From a bacterium (GTDB lineage Bacteria > Bacteroidota > Bacteroidia > Chitinophagales > Saprospiraceae): 64,000 nucleotides of DNA. The notes beneath the pieces were generated by a model, which was not told the DNA's origin, did not search any database, and saw nothing but the letters and a program-made list of their open reading frames with translations. The translations under genes were made by a program, and so were the position numbers. Numbering within the stretch: the stretch's first letter is position 1; every line of letters starts with the position of its first letter. Positions 37,728-56,300 of this stretch are shown here, piece by piece. The stretch covers positions 1 through 64,000 of the forward strand of contig JANSXW010000012.1 of NCBI GenBank assembly GCA_024742755.1. Direction: 5' to 3'.

Positions 37728-40700
37728 ATGAAGACGTCCGGCACCACGGTTTTTAGCGTGTTTTGTTATGCATTGGGGCTCGTTATGCTCCTCTGCACAA
37801 CGGCTTGGTCAGTCCCGACTCACGGAGCGCCGGCGGAATCAGCCACCCTGGTTGAAGCATCCTGGTCAGCATCTATGCTGTCTAATTGTGAATCAGATAC
37901 GATCGCCCCGGCCATCGTTTACCCGGCTGCCGGATTGCAGGCTACCACAGAAGGCTGTGACGCCGGGCAACCTGCGGTTTTCTTCTTTTCCATTACCGTA
38001 GCGGACGATTGTGACCCTAATCCTGCCTACGAGGTAGAACTTTCATCCGGAGACGCCGGCAGCCTTTCCCTCAGCAATCCTTACGAAAACCACTTTTTGC
38101 TTACGGCTCTGCCAGGCAGCTACGAAATTACCGTTACAGCTTCTGATGCCACCGGTAATGCCCGGGCGGAAACCTTTGCTGTAGAAGTAGGGCAGGAGCC
38201 GGAGCCTGGCACAAACTACGGCTGCAATGACACCATTATCGTTACGCTCGACGAGGCTTGTCAGCGGTTAATCACGCCGGATATGATTCTGGAAGGGGAT
38301 ATTGGCTGTCTCCCGGCAGCGTACTTCGATATTCAAGTGGAGGATGAAGTGCCGGGCAACGGGCCGGTAGTAGACGGAACAGGCACTTATCCGGTAGCGC
38401 TCAACCCTCAGCAGGTAGACGCTGTTTCAGGGTTTACGCTGTCTGCTGACCACAGCTTTTGGCAATTATCCAATCGGGGGAGTGCAGCCACCGGCTTTTC
38501 GGCAGATACGCTTTTTCAGTCTGTAAGTGCTTCCGGTGGTTGGTCGGCAGCGGTCCTGCCAATTGATTTTGGAGGGCTGCTTCATTTTGACTGGGCAACG
38601 TCCATTGAATGGGCAGACTCCGCTACTTTCAGTATTCAGTTACGAAATGCCGATGGCACGATCGCAGGTGAAAGCCTTTACAGCAATTCTGATGCGGGCA
38701 GCTTTGAAAGCCCGGTCACTCAGGGGCAGGTTCTGGTTCTGAATTTGGTTTCCTCGGGTGTGGCAGCGCCTATCCCTGCCTTCAGCGCCTCTGTCACCAA
38801 TTGGAGTGTAACTTTAGATGACCTTGACCTGAGTGCTGCTTTTCCCTGTTGGGGAATGGTCGTGGCCCGGGATCAGATGCCCCCCTCTATAATTTGCCCT
38901 CCCGATACCGATGCGGCAACGATTTTGCAGCCGGCCCAGCAACTAAATGGTGCCATTACCGCTCAAAGCCCAACCATTAACGTGAATGTCCATTCGTGCC
39001 TTTCCGGGGATTTGCCGGTGAGCGGGGACCGTTTCTACGATGTGATCGCCTTTGAAGTGGACCAACCGGGCGTCTTTACGTTTTTTCTCAACACCGGTTT
39101 CTCTGATGGTGGCGGGCACATGGCCCTCTTTCAGGGAGGTTTCAGTCCGCTGAGCCCTTGCAGCAGCATCCTGGCGCAGCACGATTTCCCGGCCTCTCCA
39201 AACCCTTTCAACGGAAGCAACGACCCGTATGTAAGACTGTCGCTTCCGCTGGAAGCCAATCAGCTGTACTACCTTTTTACAACTACAGATACACCCGGTG
39301 CTACCGGAGCGTACACCTACACGATTTTGCCGGACGGCAATGGCCTGATCAGTGGCGCAACCGAGGTGGTGCTGCCCTTTACGCAAACGCTGTTTTGCGA
39401 AGACCTGTTCTTTATTCAGCAAACCGATAGCCTGCAATGGACAGGCGTACCTGAAGTCTCGGACAATTGCGGGCCGGTCAACCTGACCTTTGAGGATGGC
39501 CTGGAGCAGTCAGGCGACTGTGGGGCGTTGACTATCCTGCGGACCTTCACCGTTGTGGATGGCGCCGGGAATTCCAATTCATGTACACAGGAAATTGACT
39601 TGCGCCGCCCCGGTGTGGACGATATATCACTACCTCCTCAGACGTTCCCTATTGATTGCAATCTGAATTATCCGGTAAATGGTATGGGCAATCCCTCCCC
39701 CAGCCTTACCGGATATCCTTTTTTGCTGACGGTGCAGGGCGCCCGTGATCTGGACCAGGTGTACTGCAACCTCGGTGCAACTTACAGTGATAGCCCGCCT
39801 ATCCCGGTCTGTGAAGCCTCTTTCCAGTTTTTGAGAACCTGGGATATCATTGACTGGTGCGACCCGGCCGGCTCCTTTACTTTCGGGCAAATCATTAAGG
39901 TCGGGGACTTCACCGCACCTTTGTTGAATTGCCCGGCTCAGGACACTGATGGGGATGGCGAGGAGGACGCACTGGTATTCCCGACCCAGCCTTTTGAATG
40001 CACAGGGGCCTTTGCGGTGCCCCTGCCGGAAGTAACCGATAACTGCTCCGCCTGGGAGGTGTTCACGCAGGTCGTAACCTTCCGCGACAGCATTGTGCAT
40101 AATGCTTCCGGCTTGCCTGTAGACACATTGGAGGTTGAGGAGGTGCTGGCTACCATTCCCAATGATGCGCCCAACCGTTTCGTCTCCGGAATCCCCACCG
40201 GTTGCCATGCTTTCCGCTACGTAGTGACGGATGCCTGCGATAATCAAATCGAACAGTACTGCACCTTCTGTGTGGAAGACCGCACCGAGCCGGTTGCAGA
40301 TTGCAATGAACAGCTCAATGTTTCCCTGACTCATGACGGGTTCGTCCGCCTCCTGTCGTCAAGCGTTGACGAGGGCAGCTGGGACAACTGCGCCATTGAG
40401 CAAATGGAGGTCCGCCGGCTGATCACCAACGGGCCAGGCTGTACACCTGCGGATTCCACCTATTCTGATTGGGCACCGTATGTGGATTTCACCTGTTGCG
40501 ATATTGATTCCCTGGTGCTCATAGAACTGTTGGTGGCCGATACAGCCGGCAATGAAAACACCTGCTGGGCGGAAGTGCTGGTTGAGGACAAAATCCGGCC
40601 CAATTGCAGCCCCCCCAGCGACCGGGTCCTATCTTGCGACAGCCTGCCCAACGGGTTCGAACCAGATAGCCTCGGAGGGCTTCAGTCGCTGTTTGGCCAG

Positions 40701-43226
40701 CCTTCTGTAACAGATAACTGCTCGGCGACATGGGAAGAGCTGGAGTCCGAATCTTTGATTGACGAGTGTGGGGTAGGGACGATCGTCCGGCGCTTCAGAG
40801 CTGTAGATGCAGCAGGGAATGTGTCCAATACCGCCTGTGAACAGCTCATTACCATTGAGCCCGACCACAACTATGAAATAAAATTCCCCCGGGATGGCAT
40901 GTCTAACTGCGGCATTCCCAACCCGGATACCATTGAAGTCTTTGAGATGGCCTGCGACCTGCTGGCTGTGAGTGTGACGGATACGGTTTTTGCGGCCTCC
41001 GGAGATGAATGCTACAAGCTTTTCCGCACGTACAAGGTGATCAACTGGTGCGAGTACGATGGCGAAAGCCCGCCTGTCCTGATCCGCCGTGACGAAGACT
41101 GCGATGAAATACCAGGGGATGAAGATGTTTGGGTGCTTCGCCGTTCGGAGCATGCCTTTGTAGACCGGGACAACAACCACAGCAACAGCATACCGGCTGC
41201 CGGTACAAAGGGCACGGTGTGCAATGGGCAATCCAACCCTGAAGGTTTTTGGCGGACGGTCGTATCGAATGGATACTGGCAATACCAGCAACATGTAAAG
41301 GTCTTTGACGATGAAGCGCCGGAAATACTCTTCATTCCACCATTGGATGTCTGCAGCATCAACAACGAAACCTGCCGGGCTTCCGCAGAGTACCTCTTTA
41401 GCGTACTTGACAACTGCACGCCATCGGACCTGACTATTGAGGTTTATTACGATGAATATTCTGATGGCACCGTCGATTCTGTCTTTACCGATATTTTTGG
41501 GACTTATCCCAAGTGGAAGCTTGGCGGAGACTGGCCGATAGGATCGCATGAATTTGAAATCCGGGTAGAGGATGGGTGTGGCAATGAGGCGGCTGCTACT
41601 ATGCCATTCCGAATTGTAGACTGCCTGGCACCGGTGCCTACCTGTATTAATGGCTTATCGACCCCGCTCATGCCCGTCCCTCCGCAAACGGATGTGGATG
41701 GCGATGGAGATTTCGACCGCGGTGCTGCAACCATATTTGCTACGGACCTGATTGTCTCGCCCTATACAGACTGTAGCGGCCCGGTTACGTACAGTGTCAA
41801 CAGGGTAGGAGAGCAGCCCGCCCGCGACAAAACCTCTGTCATCCTGACCTGCGAAGACCTCGGCGTGGCCCTGCTTGAAGTATATGCCTGGGACAGTGCG
41901 GAGAACCCCTTCCAGGTACAGCCTGACGGAAGTACCGGCGGTCCCAATTATGATTATTGTGAGACTTACGTGTTGGTCACCAACAACCTGGCCGACTGCA
42001 ACGCACCGCTGCCCACCATTGCCGGTGCTATAGAGCGGGAGGATGCATCTCCGGTATCGGGTGTATCAACTGACCTTAGCGGTTTTATCAGCCAGTCTGT
42101 GCTTACCGATAGCACGGGGGGCTACGCACTCGAAGGGTTGGAACCAGCGTTTGATTATACCGTCACACCGTACCTCGATGGAGACGACCAGAATGGGCTG
42201 ACTACCTACGATGTTGTTTTAATCAGCCGGCACATTCTGGGTATTGATCATCTGGATTCTCCCTACCAGCTGATTGCGGCCGATGTGAATAACTCAGGCT
42301 CCGTCAGTACGCTCGATATGATCCTGCTGCGCCAGGTTATCCTGAGCATCCTGTTGGAAATACCGAATGGGCCCAGTTGGCGCTTCGTTCCGAAAAGCCA
42401 TCATTTTGAAGACCCAACGAACCCCTGGGCAGAACCGATACCTTACTCGGTAACCTATAACGACCTGGTCACTTCCCGCCTTGATGAAGACTACGTTGCT
42501 ATCAAAATAGGGGATATTGATTTGAGTGCTGTTGCCAGTGCTGGCCCGGTAACAGAAACAAGAAATAGCCACAGTGGCCCGGCAGCCCTGCTTCGCCTTG
42601 AAGATGTGGCCCTGCCGGCAGGGGCTTCGGTGGAAGTGCCCCTGAACAGCGACTGGTCCGGCTTAGCTGGTTTTCAGGCACTGTTAACTTTTGATCAGGA
42701 GGCGGTAGTGCTGGAAAGCGTGGCGCCGGGTACGCTGAGGGAACCATTCTTCCATCATGCATCCGGCCGTTTAGCCATGAGCTGGAATGGCGATACGCCA
42801 CCGGAAGACGGCAAACCTTTGCTCTATTTGACCCTGAGGGCCAAGCGTTCGGTACGGTTGTCAGAAGCCGTATTCCTGGATGCTCAGGGCATGCAGCCCG
42901 AGTGTTATACCCCATCCCTGGCCAAAGGCCCTGTTTTGCTGCAGTACATGGATACCGCATCAGCGGTCTACGGGCTGGACGTTTTCCCGAACCCTTTCGT
43001 ACAGCAAGCCACGGTCCGTTACTACGCCTCTGCAACAGACCCTGCCCATTTGTCTATCCTTGATCAGCAAGGGCGGCTGATATGGGAAGGATGGCAGGTG
43101 CCGTCCGCTGCCGGTTGGCAGGAGTGGTTGCTGAATGAGCAGCTGTTGCCCTCCAGTGGGCTGTATTTCCTCCGCCTGAGCAGCAGCGGGCAAGTGTGGT
43201 CCCATCGTCTTTTAAAGCTGGATTAG
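37728..43226 (+). CDS. Large T9SS surface protein, paralogue of the 4171-aa protein, with dockerin and cohesin-like domains
   Basis: 1832 aa. Signal peptide (to about residue 28), HYR-like first domain, then a region colinear with the C-terminal third of the upstream protein: YGCNDTIIVTLDEACQRL matches YGCNDQVNVTFGTSCEIL, and DTDGDGEED matches DSDGDGELD. It lacks the DUF11 array. Two extra modules interrupt the shared part: a beta-rich stretch (about 205-385) and a PPC-like domain (about 405-540). It ends with dockerin-like (about 1480-1555; NNSGSVSTLDMILLRQ), cohesin-like (about 1617-1740) and T9SS sorting (about 1745-1832; VFPNPFVQQ) domains. Role: surface protein, perhaps the partner of its paralogue through cohesin-dockerin contact (inference). 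Confidence 0.92.
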   Translation: MKTSGTTVFSVFCYALGLVMLLCTTAWSVPTHGAPAESATLVEASWSASMLSNCESDTIAPAIVYPAAGLQATTEGCDAGQPAVFFFSITVADDCDPNPAYEVELSSGDAGSLSLSNPYENHFLLTALPGSYEITVTASDATGNARAETFAVEVGQEPEPGTNYGCNDTIIVTLDEACQRLITPDMILEGDIGCLPAAYFDIQVEDEVPGNGPVVDGTGTYPVALNPQQVDAVSGFTLSADHSFWQLSNRGSAATGFSADTLFQSVSASGGWSAAVLPIDFGGLLHFDWATSIEWADSATFSIQLRNADGTIAGESLYSNSDAGSFESPVTQGQVLVLNLVSSGVAAPIPAFSASVTNWSVTLDDLDLSAAFPCWGMVVARDQMPPSIICPPDTDAATILQPAQQLNGAITAQSPTINVNVHSCLSGDLPVSGDRFYDVIAFEVDQPGVFTFFLNTGFSDGGGHMALFQGGFSPLSPCSSILAQHDFPASPNPFNGSNDPYVRLSLPLEANQLYYLFTTTDTPGATGAYTYTILPDGNGLISGATEVVLPFTQTLFCEDLFFIQQTDSLQWTGVPEVSDNCGPVNLTFEDGLEQSGDCGALTILRTFTVVDGAGNSNSCTQEIDLRRPGVDDISLPPQTFPIDCNLNYPVNGMGNPSPSLTGYPFLLTVQGARDLDQVYCNLGATYSDSPPIPVCEASFQFLRTWDIIDWCDPAGSFTFGQIIKVGDFTAPLLNCPAQDTDGDGEEDALVFPTQPFECTGAFAVPLPEVTDNCSAWEVFTQVVTFRDSIVHNASGLPVDTLEVEEVLATIPNDAPNRFVSGIPTGCHAFRYVVTDACDNQIEQYCTFCVEDRTEPVADCNEQLNVSLTHDGFVRLLSSSVDEGSWDNCAIEQMEVRRLITNGPGCTPADSTYSDWAPYVDFTCCDIDSLVLIELLVADTAGNENTCWAEVLVEDKIRPNCSPPSDRVLSCDSLPNGFEPDSLGGLQSLFGQPSVTDNCSATWEELESESLIDECGVGTIVRRFRAVDAAGNVSNTACEQLITIEPDHNYEIKFPRDGMSNCGIPNPDTIEVFEMACDLLAVSVTDTVFAASGDECYKLFRTYKVINWCEYDGESPPVLIRRDEDCDEIPGDEDVWVLRRSEHAFVDRDNNHSNSIPAAGTKGTVCNGQSNPEGFWRTVVSNGYWQYQQHVKVFDDEAPEILFIPPLDVCSINNETCRASAEYLFSVLDNCTPSDLTIEVYYDEYSDGTVDSVFTDIFGTYPKWKLGGDWPIGSHEFEIRVEDGCGNEAAATMPFRIVDCLAPVPTCINGLSTPLMPVPPQTDVDGDGDFDRGAATIFATDLIVSPYTDCSGPVTYSVNRVGEQPARDKTSVILTCEDLGVALLEVYAWDSAENPFQVQPDGSTGGPNYDYCETYVLVTNNLADCNAPLPTIAGAIEREDASPVSGVSTDLSGFISQSVLTDSTGGYALEGLEPAFDYTVTPYLDGDDQNGLTTYDVVLISRHILGIDHLDSPYQLIAADVNNSGSVSTLDMILLRQVILSILLEIPNGPSWRFVPKSHHFEDPTNPWAEPIPYSVTYNDLVTSRLDEDYVAIKIGDIDLSAVASAGPVTETRNSHSGPAALLRLEDVALPAGASVEVPLNSDWSGLAGFQALLTFDQEAVVLESVAPGTLREPFFHHASGRLAMSWNGDTPPEDGKPLLYLTLRAKRSVRLSEAVFLDAQGMQPECYTPSLAKGPVLLQYMDTASAVYGLDVFPNPFVQQATVRYYASATDPAHLSILDQQGRLIWEGWQVPSAAGWQEWLLNEQLLPSSGLYFLRLSSSGQVWSHRLLKLD

Positions 43227-43472: not shown

Positions 43473-44006
43473 ATGTCACAGATCGAGTTTACCGAGTCAT
43501 TCTGCCAGTTTCGCCCCATGCTTTCCTCTTTCGCCTTCCACCTCACCAAGAATGAGGAAGAAGCTCAGGACCTTTTACAGGATACGGCCTACAAAGCCTT
43601 TAAGTACCGCAGCATGTACAAGCCACACACCAACCTTCGGGCCTGGCTGATGACCATCATGCGGAATACCTTTATCAATAATTACCGCCAAAAGAAGCGC
43701 CGTCAAACCCTGAACGACAAAACCCCCAACAACTACTTTCTGAACAGCGGGGGGCGCACCGTACTTAATGGCGGGGAGTCCACCGTGACGATGAACGAGC
43801 TCTCCCGTCTTGTGGATGGGTTGGAGGACTGGCTAAAAGTGCCCTTCCTGATGCACTATCAGGGGTTCAAATACGAAGAAATCGCTCAGGAGCTCGACAT
43901 TCCCCTTGGTACGGTCAAAAGCCGGATCTTCTTCGCACGCAAGAAACTGCAGGAAGGGCTGAAAGGGATGTATCACTCTCAAAACCTGAACGAACTATTG
44001 AACTAA
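43473..44006 (+). CDS. ECF-type RNA polymerase sigma factor
   Basis: 177 aa. Region 2 is seen in EEEAQDLLQDTAYKAFK and RAWLMTIMRNTFIN (about 25-70), the helix-turn-helix of region 4 in YEEIAQELDIPLGTVKSRIFFARK (about 128-151). A low-complexity linker (about 80-105) joins them. No anti-sigma gene is adjacent, so control may be at expression level or by a distant anti-sigma factor. In Bacteroidota similar RpoE-like factors control envelope genes. The TetR-type gene starts 53 nt downstream. Confidence 0.93.
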   Translation: MSQIEFTESFCQFRPMLSSFAFHLTKNEEEAQDLLQDTAYKAFKYRSMYKPHTNLRAWLMTIMRNTFINNYRQKKRRQTLNDKTPNNYFLNSGGRTVLNGGESTVTMNELSRLVDGLEDWLKVPFLMHYQGFKYEEIAQELDIPLGTVKSRIFFARKKLQEGLKGMYHSQNLNELLN

Positions 44007-44059: not shown

Positions 44060-44848
44060 ATGGCTCTGTTATCTATCGAGTTAAAAATCAACGAGAAGCT
44101 TTACAAAAACGACCCTCAGCGTACAGACCTTGGGCGTAAAATCCTGCAGTATAGCGTCATCATGATTGATGAGCTTGGGCTGGAGCGTTTCAATTTTAAA
44201 AAGCTGGCTCAACGGATAGGGTCTACAGAGGCGTCCATCTATCGCTACTTTGAGAATAAATACCTCTTGCTCATCTATCTCGTCAACTGGTACTGGGAGT
44301 GGATGCGCTTTAGGATTGATCTCAAAACGATGGAAATTGATGACCCTATCAGGAGGCTGCGGGCGGTTGTTAGTTGTATAGTGGATACGGCGAAGCGGAA
44401 TACAACGGTAGCGTTCATTGATGAGGACATCCTTCACCGTATCGTAGTGGCTGAAGGGACCAAAGCTTACCACAACAAGGCGGTGGATGCGCAGAATCAG
44501 GATGGTTTCTTTTCTTCCTATAAGGAACTCTCAAAGAAAGTAGCAAGTGTAATTCTGGAAAACAATCCTGATTTTCCCTACCCAAGGGCTATGGCTTCCA
44601 ATATTCTGGAAATGACCAATAACCACATTTACTTTGCTGAACACCTGCCCAGCCTTACCGAGGTCAAAGCCAACGGTGATATTCTCGCACAGGTGGAGGA
44701 GTTGATGTTGTACTATATCTGGAAACTTATCTTCCCGCCAACCGTTCAGCATAATAAGGCTTATCAACAAGCCAGTCATAAGGTGCTACAACCTGAGCGC
44801 TGGAGCATGGATGTCACAACGAATGGGTTGCAATATTCTGAAAAATAG
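44060..44848 (+). CDS. TetR/AcrR family transcriptional regulator
   Basis: 262 aa, longer than a typical 190-220 aa TetR. The DNA-binding domain lies at about 25-75: ILQYSVIMIDELGLERFNF then FKKLAQRIGSTEASIYRYF, the classic TetR recognition helix. The C-terminal helical domain is unassigned and ligand unknown. It sits after the sigma factor and 307 nt before an ABC/HlyD/TolC operon, so it may repress or tune that exporter. Confidence 0.87.
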   Translation: MALLSIELKINEKLYKNDPQRTDLGRKILQYSVIMIDELGLERFNFKKLAQRIGSTEASIYRYFENKYLLLIYLVNWYWEWMRFRIDLKTMEIDDPIRRLRAVVSCIVDTAKRNTTVAFIDEDILHRIVVAEGTKAYHNKAVDAQNQDGFFSSYKELSKKVASVILENNPDFPYPRAMASNILEMTNNHIYFAEHLPSLTEVKANGDILAQVEELMLYYIWKLIFPPTVQHNKAYQQASHKVLQPERWSMDVTTNGLQYSEK

Positions 44849-45155: not shown

Positions 45156-46949
45156 ATGGCAGATTATGGTTCTTCGAAACCTTTGCAGCGGTTTTTCCGT
45201 TTGCTGGAACTCGACAAGAAAGACATTTACTATATATATGTCTACGCGATCTTTGCCGGGCTGATTACGCTTAGCCTGCCGCTTGGGGTACAGGCCATCA
45301 TTGGACTGATCGCCGGGGGCGCGCTGTCCGCATCTCTGGTGATTCTCGTGGCAGTGGTCACCCTGGCAACCGCACTCTCCGGTATTCTCAAAGTGATGCA
45401 GCTGACGGTCACGGAGACCATTCAGCGGAGAATCTTTGCCCGTTCGGCTTTTGATTTTGCCTATCGTATACCGCGCATCAAGCTGGATGAGGTGGTGCGG
45501 TTTTATCCGCCGGAACTGGTCAACCGCTTTTTTGATACGCTCTCCGTACAAAAAGGGGTGCCCAAAATCCTGATGGACTTTTCCACCGCCGTCCTCCAAA
45601 TCCTTTTCGGGCTGATCCTGATTTCTTTTTACCATCCTTTCTTTGTTTTCTTTGGGCTTGCGCTGATCGTCATTCTGCTGGCCATCATGCGGGTGACCGG
45701 CCCCGGGGGGCTCAAGACCAGCCTCAAAGAATCCAAATACAAATACGAAGTAGCTTACTGGCTGGAAGAAATCGCCCGCGCCATGAATACCTTTAAGCTG
45801 GCAGGCGGCAATTCCTTCTCACTGAACAAAACCGATGGCCTGGTTTGCGATTACCTGGACGCCCGGAAAAAGCACTTTAAAATTCTGGTCTTCCAATACG
45901 GGAACATCGTTGCCTTTAAAACCATCATCACTGCCGGGCTCTTGTTTTTAGGAGCCTATCTGGTGATTGACAATCAGATCAACATTGGTCAGTTCGTTGC
46001 AGCGGAGATTGTGGTGATCCTGGTCATGAACTCTGTGGAGAAGCTCATTCTGAGTATGGAGACGATCTATGATGTACTCACGGGGCTGGAAAAACTGGGC
46101 GCTGTTACGGACCTGCCCATCGAAGAGGAAGAAGGCCGGCTTTTCGAGCAAATTGACACCGGTAAGGGCATAGCGCTCAACCTGGAGAAGCTGACTTTTA
46201 AATTCCGGGATTCCGACAAGAATACACTGGATAACCTGAACTTAAAGATCAAAGCCAACGAACGCATCTGCATTGCAGGCTACAACGGTTCGGGCAAGTC
46301 CACCCTGCTTCAGATTATGGCGGGCTTGTATACTGATTTTAAAGGCAGTATTTCCTACAATGGTTTTCCGGTGCGGAACATCAACATACATAGCCTGCGG
46401 CAACAAATAGGCGACTATTCGGCTCAGGAAGACATTTTCCGGGGTACCATTTTGGAAAACATCACCTTTAGTTGCCCGGATGTGCCTTTGAAGCGGGTAG
46501 TGGAGGTCGCGAATCAGATCGGATTGAGTACGTACATTGACAAACTCCCCAAAGGTTATGAGACCATGCTTTTGCCTGAGGGCAGTAACGTCACGCAAAG
46601 CATACGTACCCGCATCATTCTGGCGCGCTGTATCATCACAAGCCCGCGCATGCTGGCTGTGGAAGGCTTCTTCTACGGCATTGAGCAGGGCGACCGCGAG
46701 ATGATTTCGGACTACCTCACATCGAAAGACCACGACTGGACCATGGTCACCGTAACGGATGACCCGGTTCTGGCTTCCCGGTGCGACCGGGTAATCGTCA
46801 TGAAAGAAGGGCAGATCGTACAGTCTGGTACATTTGAAGAGATTGAGGCGGGCCCTCACTTCTACAATATTTTTACACGAACAGACGCAGCACGGGTTCA
46901 CGGCAATGGAGTTGGGAAGTCGCGCAAATCTGCTGAATCAAACGCTTAA
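45156..46949 (+). CDS. ABC exporter (permease-ATPase) with degenerate catalytic motifs
   Basis: 597 aa half-transporter: membrane domain of about six spans (about 20-310) then an ATPase domain (about 335-570). No N-terminal C39 peptidase domain. Walker A is intact (GYNGSGKST, about 375-383) and the Q-loop region is normal (SAQEDIFRGT). Three other motifs are abnormal: LSGGQ is replaced by VTQSI in GSNVTQSIRTR, Walker B reads RMLAVEGFF (Glu-Gly where Asp-Glu is expected), and the switch His is Asp in TVTDDPV. It is the first gene of an ABC/HlyD/TolC operon (gaps 5 and 1 nt), a type I secretion-like layout. It might bind but hydrolyse ATP poorly, or belong to an atypical Bacteroidota clade. Confidence 0.88.
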   Translation: MADYGSSKPLQRFFRLLELDKKDIYYIYVYAIFAGLITLSLPLGVQAIIGLIAGGALSASLVILVAVVTLATALSGILKVMQLTVTETIQRRIFARSAFDFAYRIPRIKLDEVVRFYPPELVNRFFDTLSVQKGVPKILMDFSTAVLQILFGLILISFYHPFFVFFGLALIVILLAIMRVTGPGGLKTSLKESKYKYEVAYWLEEIARAMNTFKLAGGNSFSLNKTDGLVCDYLDARKKHFKILVFQYGNIVAFKTIITAGLLFLGAYLVIDNQINIGQFVAAEIVVILVMNSVEKLILSMETIYDVLTGLEKLGAVTDLPIEEEEGRLFEQIDTGKGIALNLEKLTFKFRDSDKNTLDNLNLKIKANERICIAGYNGSGKSTLLQIMAGLYTDFKGSISYNGFPVRNINIHSLRQQIGDYSAQEDIFRGTILENITFSCPDVPLKRVVEVANQIGLSTYIDKLPKGYETMLLPEGSNVTQSIRTRIILARCIITSPRMLAVEGFFYGIEQGDREMISDYLTSKDHDWTMVTVTDDPVLASRCDRVIVMKEGQIVQSGTFEEIEAGPHFYNIFTRTDAARVHGNGVGKSRKSAESNA

Positions 46950-46954
46950 CCGAC

Positions 46955-48340
46955 ATGTTGAATATATCTGACAATACCGTTAATCAGGAAGTAGAGTTCA
47001 GCCGGTTCAATTCCTTTAAGCGGACTGTACTATCCAATGCCAACCGGATGTTTACCCGCTGGCTGTTGTTCACGCTTTTCCTGGTGATTGTGTTCTTATT
47101 CCTGCCCTGGACGCAAAACGTGCAGTCCAAGGGCAAGGTCACTACGCTTCAGCCCGGGCAACGGCCGCAGACCATACAGTCGACCATCGCAGGGCGTATT
47201 GAGAAATGGTATGTCCGGGAGGGAGACCTGGTCAGGCAGGGTGACACGATTGTGTTTCTTTCAGAAATTAAGGCTGAATACTTCGACCCCGATCTTGTGC
47301 CACGCACCAACCAACAGGTGAAGGCAAAAGAAGGGGCAATCAATTCCTACGGAGATAAGGTGGTGGCGCTGGAACAGCAGATCGAAGCCATGAAGTCAGA
47401 GCTGGAATTCAAACAGCGGCAGCTTAGGAATAAAATCCTCCAAACAGAGGCCAAGCTTAATTCTGCAGAAGCCGATTACGCACAGGCTATTGTGCAGGAT
47501 TCGATTGCCAACCGGCAGTATTCCCGTTCGCAGGAGCTGTTTGACAAAGGTATCGACAGCCGGACTAAGCTGGAAGACAAGCAGTCGAAAGTGCAGGAGA
47601 CCGCTGCCAAGCTTATTTCCGCTCAGAACAAAGTGCAGGAGGCTCAAAATGAGCTGGAGAATGCCAGGTTGGCACTCAATACGGTGCAGTACGAGTACAA
47701 TCAGAAAATCGCAAAGGCAGAGTCTGATAAATTCAGTACGCTGTCTGCTCTTTTTGACGCAGAAGGCAGTGTCAACAAACTGCGCATTGAAGCTTCCAAC
47801 TATTCCGCTCGTAACCAGTTTTACTATATTTTAGCTCCACAGGATTGCTACATCACTAAAGCCATCACTCCTGGTATCGGTGAAACGGTGAAGGAAGGAG
47901 GAGATATTGTAACCATCATGCCGGCCGATTACGAGCTGGCTGTGGAGCTCTTCGTAAAGCCTATGGACTTGCCGCTGATCGAACTTGGGCAGGAAGTCCG
48001 CTTCATCTTTGACGGCTGGCCAGCGTTCATCTTTTCCGGCTGGCCCGGGCAGTCCTTCGGCACCTACTCCGGCAGTGTGGTGGCTATCGATAATATGATC
48101 AGCAAAAACGGCGAGTACCGCATTCTCGTCGGCGCTGCCCCTGGCGGCAAGCCCTGGCCGGAAGCCCTCCGGGTAGGCTCAGGCGCTCAGGGTATTGCGC
48201 TGCTCAACAACGTGCCGCTCTGGTACGAAATATGGCGGCGCCTGAATGGATTCCCGCCAGATTACTACGATGCGGAAGATGGGGATATGGGAGACGGCGA
48301 GGACGTCAAAATGAAAGCTCCGGCTAAATCAATAAAATAA
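46955..48340 (+). CDS. HlyD-family membrane-fusion protein
   Basis: 461 aa. One N-terminal span (about 33-52), a biotinyl-lipoyl-like half-motif (GRIEKWYVREGDLVRQGDTI, about 71-90), a long coiled-coil hairpin (about 105-275) and a second lipoyl/beta-barrel part with ITPGIGETVKEGGDIVTIMP. It links the inner-membrane ABC protein to the TolC channel. Starts 5 nt after the ABC gene and is followed 1 nt later by TolC. The tail is acidic then basic and unassigned. Confidence 0.92.
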   Translation: MLNISDNTVNQEVEFSRFNSFKRTVLSNANRMFTRWLLFTLFLVIVFLFLPWTQNVQSKGKVTTLQPGQRPQTIQSTIAGRIEKWYVREGDLVRQGDTIVFLSEIKAEYFDPDLVPRTNQQVKAKEGAINSYGDKVVALEQQIEAMKSELEFKQRQLRNKILQTEAKLNSAEADYAQAIVQDSIANRQYSRSQELFDKGIDSRTKLEDKQSKVQETAAKLISAQNKVQEAQNELENARLALNTVQYEYNQKIAKAESDKFSTLSALFDAEGSVNKLRIEASNYSARNQFYYILAPQDCYITKAITPGIGETVKEGGDIVTIMPADYELAVELFVKPMDLPLIELGQEVRFIFDGWPAFIFSGWPGQSFGTYSGSVVAIDNMISKNGEYRILVGAAPGGKPWPEALRVGSGAQGIALLNNVPLWYEIWRRLNGFPPDYYDAEDGDMGDGEDVKMKAPAKSIK

Positions 48341-48341
48341 A

Positions 48342-49790
48342 ATGAGATTGAGATTCATCCCGACGCTTTTCATACTGGTACTATTGAGTCCGGTGGCGGT
48401 AGCGCAACCGGCCGATACGGCACAAGTGCTGACCGCTGATCAGTATCTGTCCTGGGTGGCGAGTTACCATCCGGTGGCCCGGCAGGGGCGGTTGCTGAAT
48501 GTACAGGCGGAAGCTCTGGAACGGCTGGCCCGGGGCGGGTTCGACCCCAAACTTTACGGCGACTGGGACCAGAAAAACTTCAAGGAAAGCGAATACTTCG
48601 CATTTGGGGAGGCTGGCGTGAAAATCCCTACCTGGTACGGCATTGAGCTGAAAGGGGCCTATGCCGTCGCAGATGTGGATGCCCTCTACCAAAACGCCGA
48701 GCGCACCGTGCCGGATGTGGGGCAGGCGATATTAGGCATTAAGGTACCCCTCGGCCGTAACCTCATCATTGATGAGCGCCGGGCTGCCCTGGAGCAAGCT
48801 AAAATCATGGCGGATGCCAACCGGGCAGAGCAGCAGGGGATGGTCAACGATTTATTGCTGGAAGCCGCGAAGGCTTACTGGGAGTGGAGCGTGGCTTTCA
48901 ATCAACTGATTGTTTTCGACCGGGCACTGGTGATTACAGTCGAAAGATTCGAAGGGATAAGAGAGAGCTTCTTCGCAGGCGACCTGCCGGCAATCGATAC
49001 CTTGGAAACGATGATTCAGTTACAGGTCCGGGAGTTTGATTACAACAATGCCTTGATTGAATACCGGAACGCGACCCTCAAACTTTCCAACTTCCTCTGG
49101 ACAGAAGCCGGAGAGCCGCTGGAAGTAACCGACGAGCTGCGTCCGCTTTTGCTGGAAGAACTGGAGCCGGACCCTGTTCCCAACACCCGGCAGCAGTTGT
49201 GGGAGGATGCGCAGCGGATACATCCTGACCTGTTGAAATACCGTTTCAAACTACAGCAGTATGATGTGGACCGCCGCCTGGCGCTTGAGCAACTGAAGCC
49301 CCGGCTCGACCTGGAGTACAACTTCCTCGGTGAGGGCACCAACTTCCTGCCCGGCAGCACAACAGACAATGGCATCTCCCAGCTGGTCGCGCAAAACTAC
49401 AAATGGGGCGTACGGTTTGATTTCCCGGTTTTCCTGCGCAAAGAGCGGGGTAAATTACAACTCACGCGCATCAAAATACAGGATGCGGAGTACACCCTGC
49501 AGCGCAAACAGCTGGAGGTGGAGAACAAGATCAACAACTACTACAATGAACAGGACAACTTCATTGCTCAGATTGCGCTTTACGAAGGTGCTGTTCAAAA
49601 CTACAACACCCTCCTCGAGGCCGAATACATCAAGTTTGACCTGGGAGAAAGCTCCATTTTCCTCGTGAATTCCCGTGAGCAGAAGCTTATCGAAGCGCAG
49701 TTGAAGCTTATTGAGCTGCGCGGTAAGTTCTTCAAGACCCGTCAGAAGCTCGAATGGGCAGCAGGCCGTTTAGGGCTACTGGCCAATTAA
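48342..49790 (+). CDS. TolC-family outer-membrane channel protein
   Basis: 482 aa, normal family length. Signal peptide (to VAVAQPADT), then two OEP repeats of paired long helices; recognisable pieces are QAILGIKVPLGRN, LLLEAAKAYWEWSVAFNQ and VENKINNYYNEQDN. It forms the outer-membrane exit duct of the tripartite exporter. The full length contrasts with the half-length homologue in the EPS operon. A hairpin follows the stop codon. Confidence 0.92.
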   Translation: MRLRFIPTLFILVLLSPVAVAQPADTAQVLTADQYLSWVASYHPVARQGRLLNVQAEALERLARGGFDPKLYGDWDQKNFKESEYFAFGEAGVKIPTWYGIELKGAYAVADVDALYQNAERTVPDVGQAILGIKVPLGRNLIIDERRAALEQAKIMADANRAEQQGMVNDLLLEAAKAYWEWSVAFNQLIVFDRALVITVERFEGIRESFFAGDLPAIDTLETMIQLQVREFDYNNALIEYRNATLKLSNFLWTEAGEPLEVTDELRPLLLEELEPDPVPNTRQQLWEDAQRIHPDLLKYRFKLQQYDVDRRLALEQLKPRLDLEYNFLGEGTNFLPGSTTDNGISQLVAQNYKWGVRFDFPVFLRKERGKLQLTRIKIQDAEYTLQRKQLEVENKINNYYNEQDNFIAQIALYEGAVQNYNTLLEAEYIKFDLGESSIFLVNSREQKLIEAQLKLIELRGKFFKTRQKLEWAAGRLGLLAN

Positions 49791-50352: not shown

Positions 50353-53300
50353 TTACCGCTGCTCGCAAATTACTTTTAGCACTTCTCTGTACCCGTTTTC
50401 CAGAACGATATCCAGAAAGTAAAGGCCTGAGAGAAGCTGATTGCTTTCCCACTCGGTTTGTACGTGCCCTGCCTTTAGTTTCATCCGGCTAACTTCCTGG
50501 CCCAGCCCATTGCGTAGTATGGCTACACCAGCTGTTTCCAATGGCTGGTCAAAGGCGATTGTAAACATGCCATGGTTGGGGTTCGGGAAAACAGTTGCCC
50601 GCATGGTTTCCCGTTCCTGCAGGAAGGAATGTTGGATATCATCGGGCATCACCAGGGCCTCATTATTTAGGTTGGACCGGTATCTCACTCTGCTAAAGGT
50701 GGCACTGGCCTGCCCATTCGGATCGGTCGTAAAAACAGCCATCCCCATCTCAACACATTCATTCATGGGCAGGTAAACCTGATGCACCAGTATCCATCCT
50801 CCTGTGTTGCTATTTTTGAAAAAGCCCCGGATAAGGTCTCCATCTCTGCGAAGCCGCAGATGGATTGGAAATGCCTGGTAAAAATTGCCACTGTTCCGCA
50901 TACCATTAGTGGTATACCGGGTCTCCCATCGCAGCAGATTGGTAAGGTTGGAATACATGGCTACCATTTTTGCGCCAGGTGCATCACTCTCTCTGATCAT
51001 GATACCTGCGTAGCCACCTTCGACCGCATCTATTCGCACCTGAATACCACCATCATTGCACAGTTCCTGGCCAATGAAAGCTACATTGTCCTCGTTGAGA
51101 GGGATTAGGTTGTAAGCTTCCGTCTGTATGTTAAAGACACCGGTTGGGGGCGTGCAAGGGTCGTAGGCATAATCAGATCCTTCTCCATGATCTCCAATGT
51201 CAGCATTCTGCCATGGAGCAGGGAGCTTGCCGGACGACACTACCGTTACTTGAGCGGTGCAATTATCGCTGTTTCCACTTAGATCCGATACACTCACCGG
51301 AATGGGGAACGTAAACCCTTCCTCGTCGCAGGTGAAGACAGCATCGGTGAAATCTACTTCAGCAATCAAACAATTGTCAGTGCTCATGCCGGCATCGAAG
51401 ACATCTTCAAGCTGCAAATGATATACTCCTTCCGGACCGAGGTCGACTTCCGTATTCAGGCAGTGTGCATCGGGCGGCAAGTTATCGGTTACGGTGATAT
51501 CGAACTGGCAGGTGGCCTCGCCGCACGCATTGGTAGCCGTAACGGCAACGGTGGTCTGGCCCACCTCGAAGGTCTGGCCTGTACCTGTTCCATCACCGCT
51601 GCCTATGGTCGCTCCTGTGAACGCATAGGTGTAATCTGGTACCGGTACACCATCAGCGATGACGTCATAGCTGACGACTGCACTACAGGAAGCGGCATCC
51701 ACGTTGACCTGCAAATAGTCAGGGCAGGCCGTAAACTCAGAGGTAGGTTGGCAGGAGCAATCTTCCGGCGCTGTCATCAGCACCTCGCTGGTGTAGGTGC
51801 AGCTGGAAGAAAATGCTGCAGAGAGCACTACTTCTTGCCCGTTGGCAGGCAGCTGCACATTCATAAACGTGTATGACGTGGTACAGGTAAGGTCTTCAGA
51901 AGTGGATTCCAAAACCGTATTCCCCTGTTGGAGCGTCAGCGTTGCTCCCGAAGGCGCATAGGCGAAAGTCACCGTCACATCGGCTGTGAAGTAGTCATCT
52001 GTACTGCTGATGGTGCCGTTGTCATCACAAGCACTGGTATTGGACAGTGCAATATTCGTTAACTCGCAGTCTGGCCCACTGCCGCCACTGAGGTTTCCAC
52101 AACCTCCGCTCAGGGCAATCGCTCCCGGGGATAATGCGCACTCGAAGGGGTCTGTCCAGCCATTATTGCAGGGCAGGTTGTCAATGGAACCGTTCGGATT
52201 GGTGGACCAAAGGGTGACTTCTTCTGAAAAATCAGAGGACAAAATAGCCCATTCGCCTTCTACATAACCGATGAAAAAATCGTTCTGGGACTGCCAGACG
52301 GGCGCCCCCCCCTCATAGCCAACAAAGGTGTAAGTTCCGTTTGGCCCAAAGCAGCCGAAACCGGACACGGTGATGTCAGCAGGGGTAAAAGTGCCGCCAC
52401 ATTCGGGCGCTGTGCCCAGCGAGCTATCATTGTAGTCGCAGCCATCAGAAAAAGTAGCCGTCAGGTCAATGTCGCTGCCGTCAGCGGCCAGGGTCACGCC
52501 GGTAAAGGTGTATGCGTTCGCAGTGAGGTCGGCCACATTGACTGCAGGGGCCGATCCGGCAAGGGTAGGCCCGGTTAGTGTAAGCGTACCGCTGCCAGGC
52601 AGGTAGCCGTAGGTCACCGTCACATCGGCAGTGAAGGTATCGTCGGTGGTGCAGGTGGTATTGCCACAGTCTGCCTCACTGATATTGTCAATGGAGATGC
52701 CAATCTGGCCATAGCTGAGGACTACTTTATCGGTCAGATACTCAATGGAGAAGCCTTCCGGCAAATTCAGTGTCGAGAAAGTCCCCGTATTCGATGCATG
52801 GAGGATGATGTCGAAAGCATCCGCACATGCAGGCTCAAAGCCGTCCACAAGCGTCACGTTGAGCGTGCCTCCAAGGGTAGAGCTGGTCGGCAAATCGAGC
52901 ATATCGTGTTCCATGTAAGGCGTTGTGCCGCCTATTTCAATATCAATGTTGCCAATGTTGTTGAGCTTATGGATGGTCAGCGTACCGGGGCTTGCACCGG
53001 GCTGAATGCTCCCGGAGGCATTGTTGTCAAATATGCGCCCGGCGCTGTTGTCCAGGGTGCCGTTGCCTTTCAGGATGCCGTTGTTGGAAAATTGACTGGA
53101 ATTTTGGTTGCTCGCTGCCATGGTGCCATCCAGAATGAACGTGCCCGTGGCCGTATTGTCAAACACGAATCCGGAACCAGTAATGTCGATGAGAGCCCCT
53201 GCGGGAACCAACAAGCTGTCGTTGTTTTCGAGCAGGGAAAAAGCAGAACAAATCAGCGTGCCGTTTTGGTAAACCAGGTTATTGTTCCTGAAAAACGCCG

Positions 53301-56300
53301 CATCTTTTTGCTCAATGGTGCCGTTGTTGGTCAACGTCCCATTGTTTTCCATGCCAACGTTGCCAAATTCGAGTTTCAGGGTGCCATCCACGTCATTGAG
53401 GAACATCCCGCTTTGGGTCATCCCCTTTCTCATGGTCATCGTGCCCATGTTGTTGAAGGTACCGCCTGCCTCATTGGTAAGGTTAGGATTGCTATTGAAA
53501 ACAGTAGTTCCATTGTTGGTCACTGTGCCCGAATTGGTGAAGAAAGCGTTTGTGGACTGGTTGAATTCAATAGTCCCTGCCGCTACGTTAAAGATGCCGC
53601 TGTTGTTGACCCCCATGAACCAACTGACGGTGTTGCCCGGCCAGTTGTGGGTAAACTCACCTTCATTGGTGAAAACCCCGGTATTCAGGGAAACTCCGGC
53701 CTGGTTGTCAATCACTCCGGTGGAGAGGTTCGTGATGTTGGCAAACGATGTCAGCCTTTTCAGGTTGGTGATAGTGCCAGCGTTGAACAAGTTGGCATCA
53801 GGGCCACTCATAGAAAGGCCGTTTGCTCCTCCATCTATGGTGAAGCCGCCGTTGTTGTAGAGCGGGATAAAATAGGTCGCCGTGCCGTTGCCCGTGAGGG
53901 TAACCATCCCGTTGTTTTCAAAGCCACCCGTGTTAGCAGTGGATTTGCTGAAAGTGACGCTTTGCTGGATGTCGAGCGAACCGCCCATTTCAATCAATAC
54001 CGAATCCCCAATGCTGGTAATGCTCATGCCGGGATGGATTACCGCATCGCCCAAATAGGTAAAATGGCGGTTGTTGCCGCTTGTTGCGGGCTGGTTGTTG
54101 TCCTGCCAGTTGGTAGGCACATCCCAGTTGCCGGTACCTGTAAACACGTAGCGGCTGCAGGGGAGGGGCGTGGCAATCATCTCGCTGGCAGAGCCGCTGT
54201 TGTCCGAGAAGGATGCTGTCACTTCTGCTTCCTGCCCTGTGGCCAAAAGTTTTACACTATTAAAGGTGTACGAGTCGCCGCTCAAAGCGGAAACATCCAC
54301 CGAAGCCGTGCCCACCAGGGCGCTGCTGCTCAAATCCAGTGTGCCCGAAGCCGGGATACTGGAAAATTTAACCGTGACACTGCCAGAGGCAAAATCATCT
54401 TCATTGACGTAGGTCATGTCACCATTGCAGGTAGTAAAGCCGCCAAAGGTGATACATTCGATTTCCCCGACTGCGGTGGTCGCTTTTTCATAGGCTCCCA
54501 TGTCCACGGTGCCGTTTTCGATGCGGGTGTTGCCTGCCAGGTCGGTAGCTGACACGTCAGTGTTGTCCCCAGCATTGATGGCAGGAGAGCAGGATGTGAG
54601 GGTGTAGTCATTGCTCGCCGCATCGGTGAAGAGCGGGTCAAGGTAGATGTTGTTGCCATCATCGGTAGCGTCTGTGGGAAAGCCGTCCTGCAAAAGCGAG
54701 TAGGCGATATTGATAGTACCCCCATTGTTGTAGACCTGCTGCTGCCCAATGGTGCCATCGCCCTGCTGGACATTGCCCCAAAAAATGCAGTTGCTCAAAG
54801 TGAGTTCATCATCGCAGGTGACCCCGCCGCCGGGCCGTAGCGTTGCGATATTTTCGGCAAAAGTGCTGTTGATGATCGACAGGTCTGCAGCATCCGAAAA
54901 GATGGCGCCACCTGCACCATAATCTATGTCGTCACTGGTTGCCTTATTTTTAGCAAAAAGACAGTCAGAAATCCGAGCACCATCGTCATATATAATGATG
55001 GCCCCACCATATATTGCCTCGTTATCGAGGAAAGAGGAGCGGATTATTTGGGTGCCTTCTCCACGCCTGGCGCGGATTGCTCCACCCTCATCCCCACTGG
55101 TGTTGCCAGTGAACTGGCAATCCATGATGGTGGTAAAGTTGATGTCATTTTCGCTCGTATAATACAGGTAGATGGCCCCGCCGTCGTTCGTAGTGGAATT
55201 ATCGATGAACTGGCAGTTGCTGATGGTGTCATTGCCGTAGGAGTATTCTGAGTAGATGGCACCAGCATAGTAACTGCTGTTACCGTTGAAAGAGCTGTTC
55301 GTGATGCTGGTGTAGTTGATTTCGTTGTAGCCCGAATATACCAGGTAGATGGCTCCACCATATTCGGTTGCCCCATTGCTGTTGAACTGGCAACTGTCTA
55401 TCACATCATTGCCATAAGAGTATTCCGAATAGATGGCGCCGCCATATTCCGCTCCGTTTTCGGTAAAACTGCACCTTTTAAAACCGGTATAGTTATCTTC
55501 GTTATATCCTGAATAAATGAGGTAAACTGCCCCGCCGTACCCCGTGCAGGTATCTTTGGTGAACTGGCAGTCCTCAAAAATGTAGTTGCCTTCTGGTTCT
55601 TCAATATAAACAGCCCCGCCGTCGTCTGCATTGTTGTCTTCGAACGTACAGTTCTCAATAATGGTAGCGGTTCCGTTCTCTTGGCCATAGAAGTAGATAG
55701 CACCTCCCTCTCCACTGGTATTCCCGGTAAAAGTGCAGTTGCTGATGGTATCGTTGGCTTCCGAATAAGCATAGATGGCGCCGGCATATCTGGTGGCTTC
55801 ATTGTTCGTGAACTGGCAATTGTCAATGTTGGTGTAGCCGCCGTTTTCGCCTGAATATTCTAAGTAGATACCGGCTGCAGAGAAGTTGCTGAAGTTATCG
55901 GTGAACTCGCAGTTGGTGATGTTACAAACGCCACCTGTCTCTTCGATGTAAATGCCCGCAGCATAATAGTAGCCAAAGTTTTCCACAAAATTCACATCGT
56001 TGATGGTGAAAGCAGTAACGGCCCTTAGGTAGAGCGCCCCTTGCCGTTTAAAAATATTTTCACCTTCCAAGGTGTGGCGGTCATTGTTTTCTGCGCTGTA
56101 GGCATGTTGGATGGTCAGGCCATCCAGCAGAATACCATTATCGTTGACCGATATAAAGATGTGGTAGGCATTGCCGTCATCCCAACTATCGTTGTTGTCC
56201 ACGTCGCCGGAGAGGATGGTCTCGTTGCCTGGTGTCCGTTCGGAAAGCATCGTTTCCGTACCGGCAAAGCCACCGTAAATCTTGATGTTGTCCTTGAGCA

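Follow-up and report, generated by a model that had tools for sequence, protein, structure and literature searches.

An ABC exporter family of Bacteroidota, encoded with HlyD and TolC, in which the nucleotide-binding domain has decayed and has repeatedly been deleted

Several described transport systems bear on the exporter reported here. In type I secretion (HlyB-HlyD-TolC, LssB, PCAT1), the ABC exporter belongs to an operon that also encodes HlyD and TolC, and this make-up is shared by the present locus. SbmA/BacA transporters (SLiPTs) arose from a full ABC transporter, have lost both the nucleotide-binding domain (NBD) and the coupling helices, and are proton-driven (PMC13316013). The NBD truncations LmrA-MD and MsbA-MD were found to transport drugs with protons, and LmrA requires the glutamate E314 in TM6 (PMC2704374, PMC6155054, PMC4979069). 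Finally, in TM287/288, TmrAB, LmrCD and CFTR one protomer carries a degenerate Walker B, catalytic Glu and signature, as the protein studied here does; in contrast to the present operon, however, these transporters have a linked partner and retain one canonical site. A literature search of partial coverage found no description of the present family or of degenerate Bacteroidota type I systems.

In this study, an operon of a Saprospiraceae bacterium was analysed within a 64,000-nucleotide stretch of contig JANSXW010000012.1 (hereafter the window). The features of the locus were as follows.

43473..44006, + strand: ECF sigma factor, directly upstream of the TetR gene (Pfam, neighbourhood comparison)
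44060..44848, + strand: TetR-type regulator, upstream of the exporter gene; a neighbour kept in many relatives (Pfam, neighbourhood comparison)
45156..46949, + strand: ABC half-exporter gene with a decayed NBD, 597 aa (ORF, domain profiles, AF2 model)
45156..46145, + strand: transmembrane domain (TMD), residues 1-330 (conservation)
45783..45800, + strand: short helix 210-215 between TM4 and TM5, including F213-K214 (AF2 secondary structure, conservation)
46005..46007, + strand: codon of E284 in TM6, a candidate ion-coupling residue (putative role)
46173..46880, + strand: degenerate NBD (alignment, Pfam, AF2 with pLDDT about 90)
46278..46304, + strand: Walker A, GYNGSGKST, residues 375-383, intact (alignment)
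46590..46604, + strand: signature position, VTQSI in place of LSGGQ, residues 479-483 (alignment)
46662..46667, + strand: E503 in place of the Walker B Asp (46662) and G504 in place of the catalytic Glu (46665) (alignment)
46758..46760, + strand: D535 in place of the switch His (alignment)
46955..48340, + strand: HlyD-type periplasmic adaptor (profiles, neighbourhood comparison)
48342..49790, + strand: TolC-type outer-membrane channel (profiles, neighbourhood comparison)

The protein has the ABCB-like type IV fold, a six-helix TMD joined to an ABC_tran fold, by Pfam, the AF2 model and Foldseek. Pfam assigned ABC_membrane to residues 27-288 and ABC_tran to residues 358-500, both well over cut-off, and the top Foldseek matches of the model were PCAT1 (8vox) and HlyB/HlyD (8dck), with a TM-score of about 0.86. 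Among NCBIfam profiles the best was that of LssB (TIGR03375), at 195 bits far under its cut-off of 693, so that no curated cut-off for a type I secretion ATPase was reached. Compared with type I exporters, the window protein lacks functional ATPase motifs and an N-terminal domain, and some of its orthologues lack the NBD or have the TMD fused to HlyD. An additional N-terminal domain was present in several family members, and in one of them (L152) it aligned to the N-terminal part of the LssB profile. The ABC gene is a single open reading frame with HlyD and then TolC directly 3′ of it, and the operon is thus intact, as a first sequence-only reading of this DNA had held. In fold and operon the system is of the type I secretion kind, but the motifs by which an ABC motor is defined are missing.

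The motif register was set by alignment with solved exporters (PDB) and 165 homologues. Walker A was intact, with its Lys at K381 (base 46296), and the Q-loop residue Q424 was retained, whereas LSGGQ, the Walker B Asp, the catalytic Glu and the switch His were all absent. The sequence-only reading had described an intact Walker A, VTQSI in place of LSGGQ and an Asp in place of the switch His, and each of these agreed with the alignment. Its "VEG for DE" was right as to the loss but shifted in register, in that V502 precedes the Walker B Asp site (E503) and the catalytic Glu site is G504. Any further misplacement of motifs was ruled out by alignment to the PDB exporters and to near-canonical relatives. 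With signature, Walker B Asp, catalytic Glu and His all lost, a homodimer would contain no canonical ATP site, as that reading had also concluded. An orthologue in Phaeodactylibacter xiamenensis KD52 (L060), 98.7% identical, carried identical motif residues; close relatives had the signature VPQSI or VPKNI, VEG at Walker B and D at the switch, and the same kind of motif changes was found down to about 40% identity. The relatives' alignment, proposed earlier as a check, revealed comparable decay in more than 100 relatives, and the motif loss, conserved across the family, marks a distinct clade.

Members of this family were found in 36 of 60 near relatives, in 100 of 393 genomes sampled across the phylum and, with a TMD query, in 212 of 396 Bacteroidia genomes sampled across the class. 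HlyD followed the ABC gene wherever the flank was long enough, TolC usually did so too, and TetR was often adjacent; the exceptions were L162, with no HlyD nearby, and L158, with no TolC. In a few Saprospiraceae loci an additional gene lay between ABC and HlyD. By eye, a pyruvate-kinase-like gene stood immediately behind the decayed ABC gene at three loci of Saprospiraceae (L072:7794-9692, L099:7930-9843 and L080:3665-5128), and in L072 and L099 it separated ABC from HlyD. Two loci contained interrupted genes that could be pseudogenes or assembly errors, namely an ABC gene with three in-frame stops (G054:C6:43763-45430) and a TolC gene split across two frames (L084:9066-10489). The presence of a TetR regulator suggests small toxic molecules as the putative substrate of the exporter, and no gene for a protein substrate with a C-terminal or leader signal, as in type I secretion, is obvious in the operon. 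The ECF sigma neighbour was kept in the nearest relatives only; this factor may control the exporter operon. The window operon was flanked on both sides by giant ORFs of secreted, repeat-rich appearance (37728-43226, + strand, 1832 aa; 50353-58683, - strand, 2776 aa).

A motif census was carried out on the 147 members that have an NBD. LSGGQ was found in none of them, LPRSI being the commonest signature. The Walker A Lys was kept in 130, the other 17 having lost Walker A or carrying a changed form (K to R and others); the Walker B DE was kept in 16, with ED the commonest pair (50 members), and the switch His in 14. Both the Walker B Asp and the switch His were missing in 116, and Lys, Asp, Glu and His were all retained in only 11. 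Nine of these 11 members (all but L091 and L094) fall within a deep, near-canonical group found in other classes of the phylum; K, D, E and mostly H are retained in this group, whose signatures include LSTGQ, LSTGE and LPxGL. With canonical exporters as the outgroup, intact motifs are the natural choice of ancestral state, although the deepest forks of the TMD tree were unresolved. In five members (L174, L227, L228, L168 and L222) the P-loop was unrecognisable and the reading frame still long; these NBDs possibly represent the last stage before NBD deletion, or else misalignment. The earlier suggestion that a distinct clade works with "another chemistry" found no support, in that the motifs drift without a new conserved set and the end point is loss of the domain; the progressive loss of the motor across the family lay beyond that reading.

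The whole NBD has been deleted in at least three related lineages. TMD-only orthologues of 324-361 aa were found in 12 sampled genomes (L146-L151, L216-L221), some of them assembled in one to four contigs, and the stop codon of these genes touches or almost touches the HlyD start. In five more sampled genomes (L189, L192, L195, L224, L230), TMD and HlyD were fused in one reading frame with no NBD. The junctions to HlyD were clean in both kinds of gene, and no NBD remnant was left at the 14 NBD-less loci searched. The single weak NBD match, at L151, was a separate ABC ATPase gene (L151:7707-8564) downstream of TolC, about 4 kb away; a gene of this kind was not seen at any other TMD-only locus. 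The 17 NBD-less members fell into three groups on the TMD tree, and the starred branches force at least three changes; a single NBD-less clade was rejected (AU test, p = 0.0006), on a quick tree with some long branches and for a group defined after the sequences were seen. L215 (G614) was left out of the NBD-less count because a contig end cuts the gene, and the partial members L083, L111, L112, L115, L116, L185, L193 and L194 were also left out.

Divergence and selection were then compared between the two domains. The TMD (45156..46145) was the best-conserved part of the window protein and the part retained alone in NBD-less relatives; nearly all family-invariant alignment columns lay in it. 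Between the window gene and L060, dN/dS was 0.003 for the TMD and 0.015 for the NBD, indicating strong purifying selection in both. The NBD of the window gene diverged 1.35-3.7 times as much as its TMD, compared with a ratio of 0.6-1.25 for the canonical exporter of the same genomes used as a control (row L238, for which the wrong ORF had been picked, was left out). We read the window NBD as a retained domain that does not drive transport. The C-terminal residues 577-597 (46884-46946) were only 17-25% identical to L061-L063, a very rapid divergence among close relatives, and were modelled as disordered.

The helix at residues 210-215 occupies what we take to be the place of coupling helix 2, which docks the NBD in type IV exporters. 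It is intact in the window gene, and in NBD-bearing members F213 was conserved at 98% and K214 at 92%. In the TMD-only group and the fusions, by comparison, the least conserved TMD stretches started at 208-214 (region 208-225); in L221 the lowest stretch started at 103-110, by coupling helix 1, and 206-217 was low too. At matched divergence, F213 was kept in 18 of 22 NBD-bearing rows versus 1 of 15 NBD-less rows; in one TMD-only subgroup the docking residues changed mildly (Tyr-Arg). Judging by these alignments, the NBD-docking coupling-helix region is erased in NBD-less relatives. Elsewhere in the TMD, 63 of 80 conserved positions persist in NBD-less members, including E284 (TM6) and D306. 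SLiPTs couple transport to protons through a ladder of glutamates; in the present family E284, D306 and E87 (Glu or Asp) are conserved. E284, an acid in 163 of 164 rows (one Asp), is a candidate ion-coupling residue. A gain of E284 accompanying motor loss was ruled out: the residue is already present in the near-canonical group and therefore does not signal a change to ion drive.

The NBD-less relatives resemble SLiPTs in having an exporter-like TMD with neither NBD nor coupling helices, which the window gene itself retains. SLiPTs are, however, peptide importers with TM0 helices and no HlyD or TolC, whereas the present family has both partners, retains NBD-bearing decayed forms and has lost the NBD repeatedly. 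Nor do the TMDs of the window protein and its NBD-less relatives belong to the SbmA_BacA family, as they match PF00664 only. The family may work like SbmA without being part of that family. LmrA-MD and MsbA-MD, for their part, are laboratory truncations of ATP-driven proteins, whereas NBD loss in the window family is natural; E314 of LmrA and E284 are both TM6 acids, but their positions may differ.

Taken together, these data lead us to regard as fairly probable that the window gene encodes the inner-membrane part of a tripartite TMD-HlyD-TolC exporter of HlyB/PCAT1-like, ATP-driven origin that is now independent of ATP hydrolysis. The alignments show that the signature is lost throughout the family, that most members also lack the Walker B Asp, the catalytic Glu and the switch His, and that no fewer than three lineages have lost the whole NBD, while TMD, HlyD and TolC stay together under selection. 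Given this stepwise decay and repeated deletion of the ATP domain, ATP hydrolysis very probably does not power these pumps, and we infer as much from the sequences for transport in the family at large. Because its docking helix and Walker A are intact and it is modelled at a pLDDT near 90, the window NBD may still bind ATP, as a folded, docked remnant with a putative role in stability or gating rather than power. Least certain are the remaining steps, in which alternating access of a TMD dimer would move substrate towards the HlyD-TolC duct and a proton or other ion gradient would supply the drive, as in SbmA and in LmrA and MsbA truncated before the NBD; E284 and other conserved acids in the membrane would be the candidates for coupling. 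Ion-gradient drive, argued by analogy with these systems, is the more speculative part of this proposal.

Two possibilities have to be weighed for the window protein, slow hydrolysis and an unlinked canonical partner, since purifying selection acts on its NBD, and its Walker A and docking helix are intact. ATP binding alone, or very slow hydrolysis with displaced residues, could drive or gate the window lineage, the NBD-less lineages being a derived exception. The frequent retention of the Walker A Lys, the common acid pair E-D at Walker B and a selected NBD that is folded in the model are in keeping with this. We nevertheless consider it rather unlikely, as no new conserved set took the place of the old motifs, 17 members have lost or changed even Walker A, and three lineages do without an NBD.

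The window protein could also pair with a canonical half-exporter from another locus and be the non-catalytic subunit of the resulting heterodimer, on the model of TM287/288 or TmrAB; heterodimers with a single degenerate site are well known (PMC7756269). The selected NBD with its Walker A and docking helix would suit such a role. The host genome indeed encodes seven other exporters with canonical motifs that might serve, two of them with their own HlyD. They are only 21-25% identical to the window protein, however, and none is linked to the window operon; a canonical copy of the same family was absent from the host genome (next best match, 22% identity). No canonical exporter was conserved beside the operon at the window locus or at relatives' loci, and in near-canonical relatives, where a tandem canonical partner was sought, the large neighbours were UvrA, RecG, OmpA, histidine kinase and similar proteins. 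When the 17 NBD-less genomes were searched with a family-NBD profile, no family NBD was found elsewhere: the best matches, at 160-176 bits, lay in ORFs of at least 583 residues, as expected for ordinary full exporters, compared with 206-373 bits for family NBDs in control genomes, although one control (G435) reached only 175 bits, which limits the sensitivity of this search. Moreover, a partner would give only a signature to the window Walker A, with Walker B, catalytic Glu and His also gone; and several relatives, among them the TMD-HlyD fusions, have lost the NBD together with the helix on which one would dock. A heterodimer is therefore quite improbable, and the earlier proposal of a pseudo-ATPase needing a partner is not supported, the search for one elsewhere in the genome that it called for having given these unrelated exporters. 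That sequencing error, a frameshift or a decaying pseudogene accounts for the odd motifs, the one point in its favour, is refuted by the same residues in a second genome, parallel changes in more than 100 relatives, the intact frame and dN/dS far below 1 in both domains, and its probability is next to nil.

Returning to an exporter independent of ATP hydrolysis, we give roughly even chances to a broader reading, that the family is a natural series leading from an ATP-driven secretion-type ABC exporter to an ion-driven tripartite exporter, separate from the SbmA lineage and with the NBD lost more than once, whose near-canonical, motif-decayed, NBD-deleted and TMD-HlyD-fused stages would all be alive in Bacteroidota. 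Whether an ABC-exporter membrane domain can carry out secondary transport is a question so far argued on the basis of SbmA and of LmrA and MsbA truncations. Evolution appears to have repeated the NBD-removal experiment inside a HlyD/TolC machine, and because intermediates are still alive, the contributions of the NBD, ATP binding, hydrolysis and the coupling helices are directly testable. These data also carry a warning for annotation, in that genes which would be labelled "ABC transporter ATP-binding protein", present in roughly half the Bacteroidia genomes sampled, probably encode exporters that are not ATP-driven.
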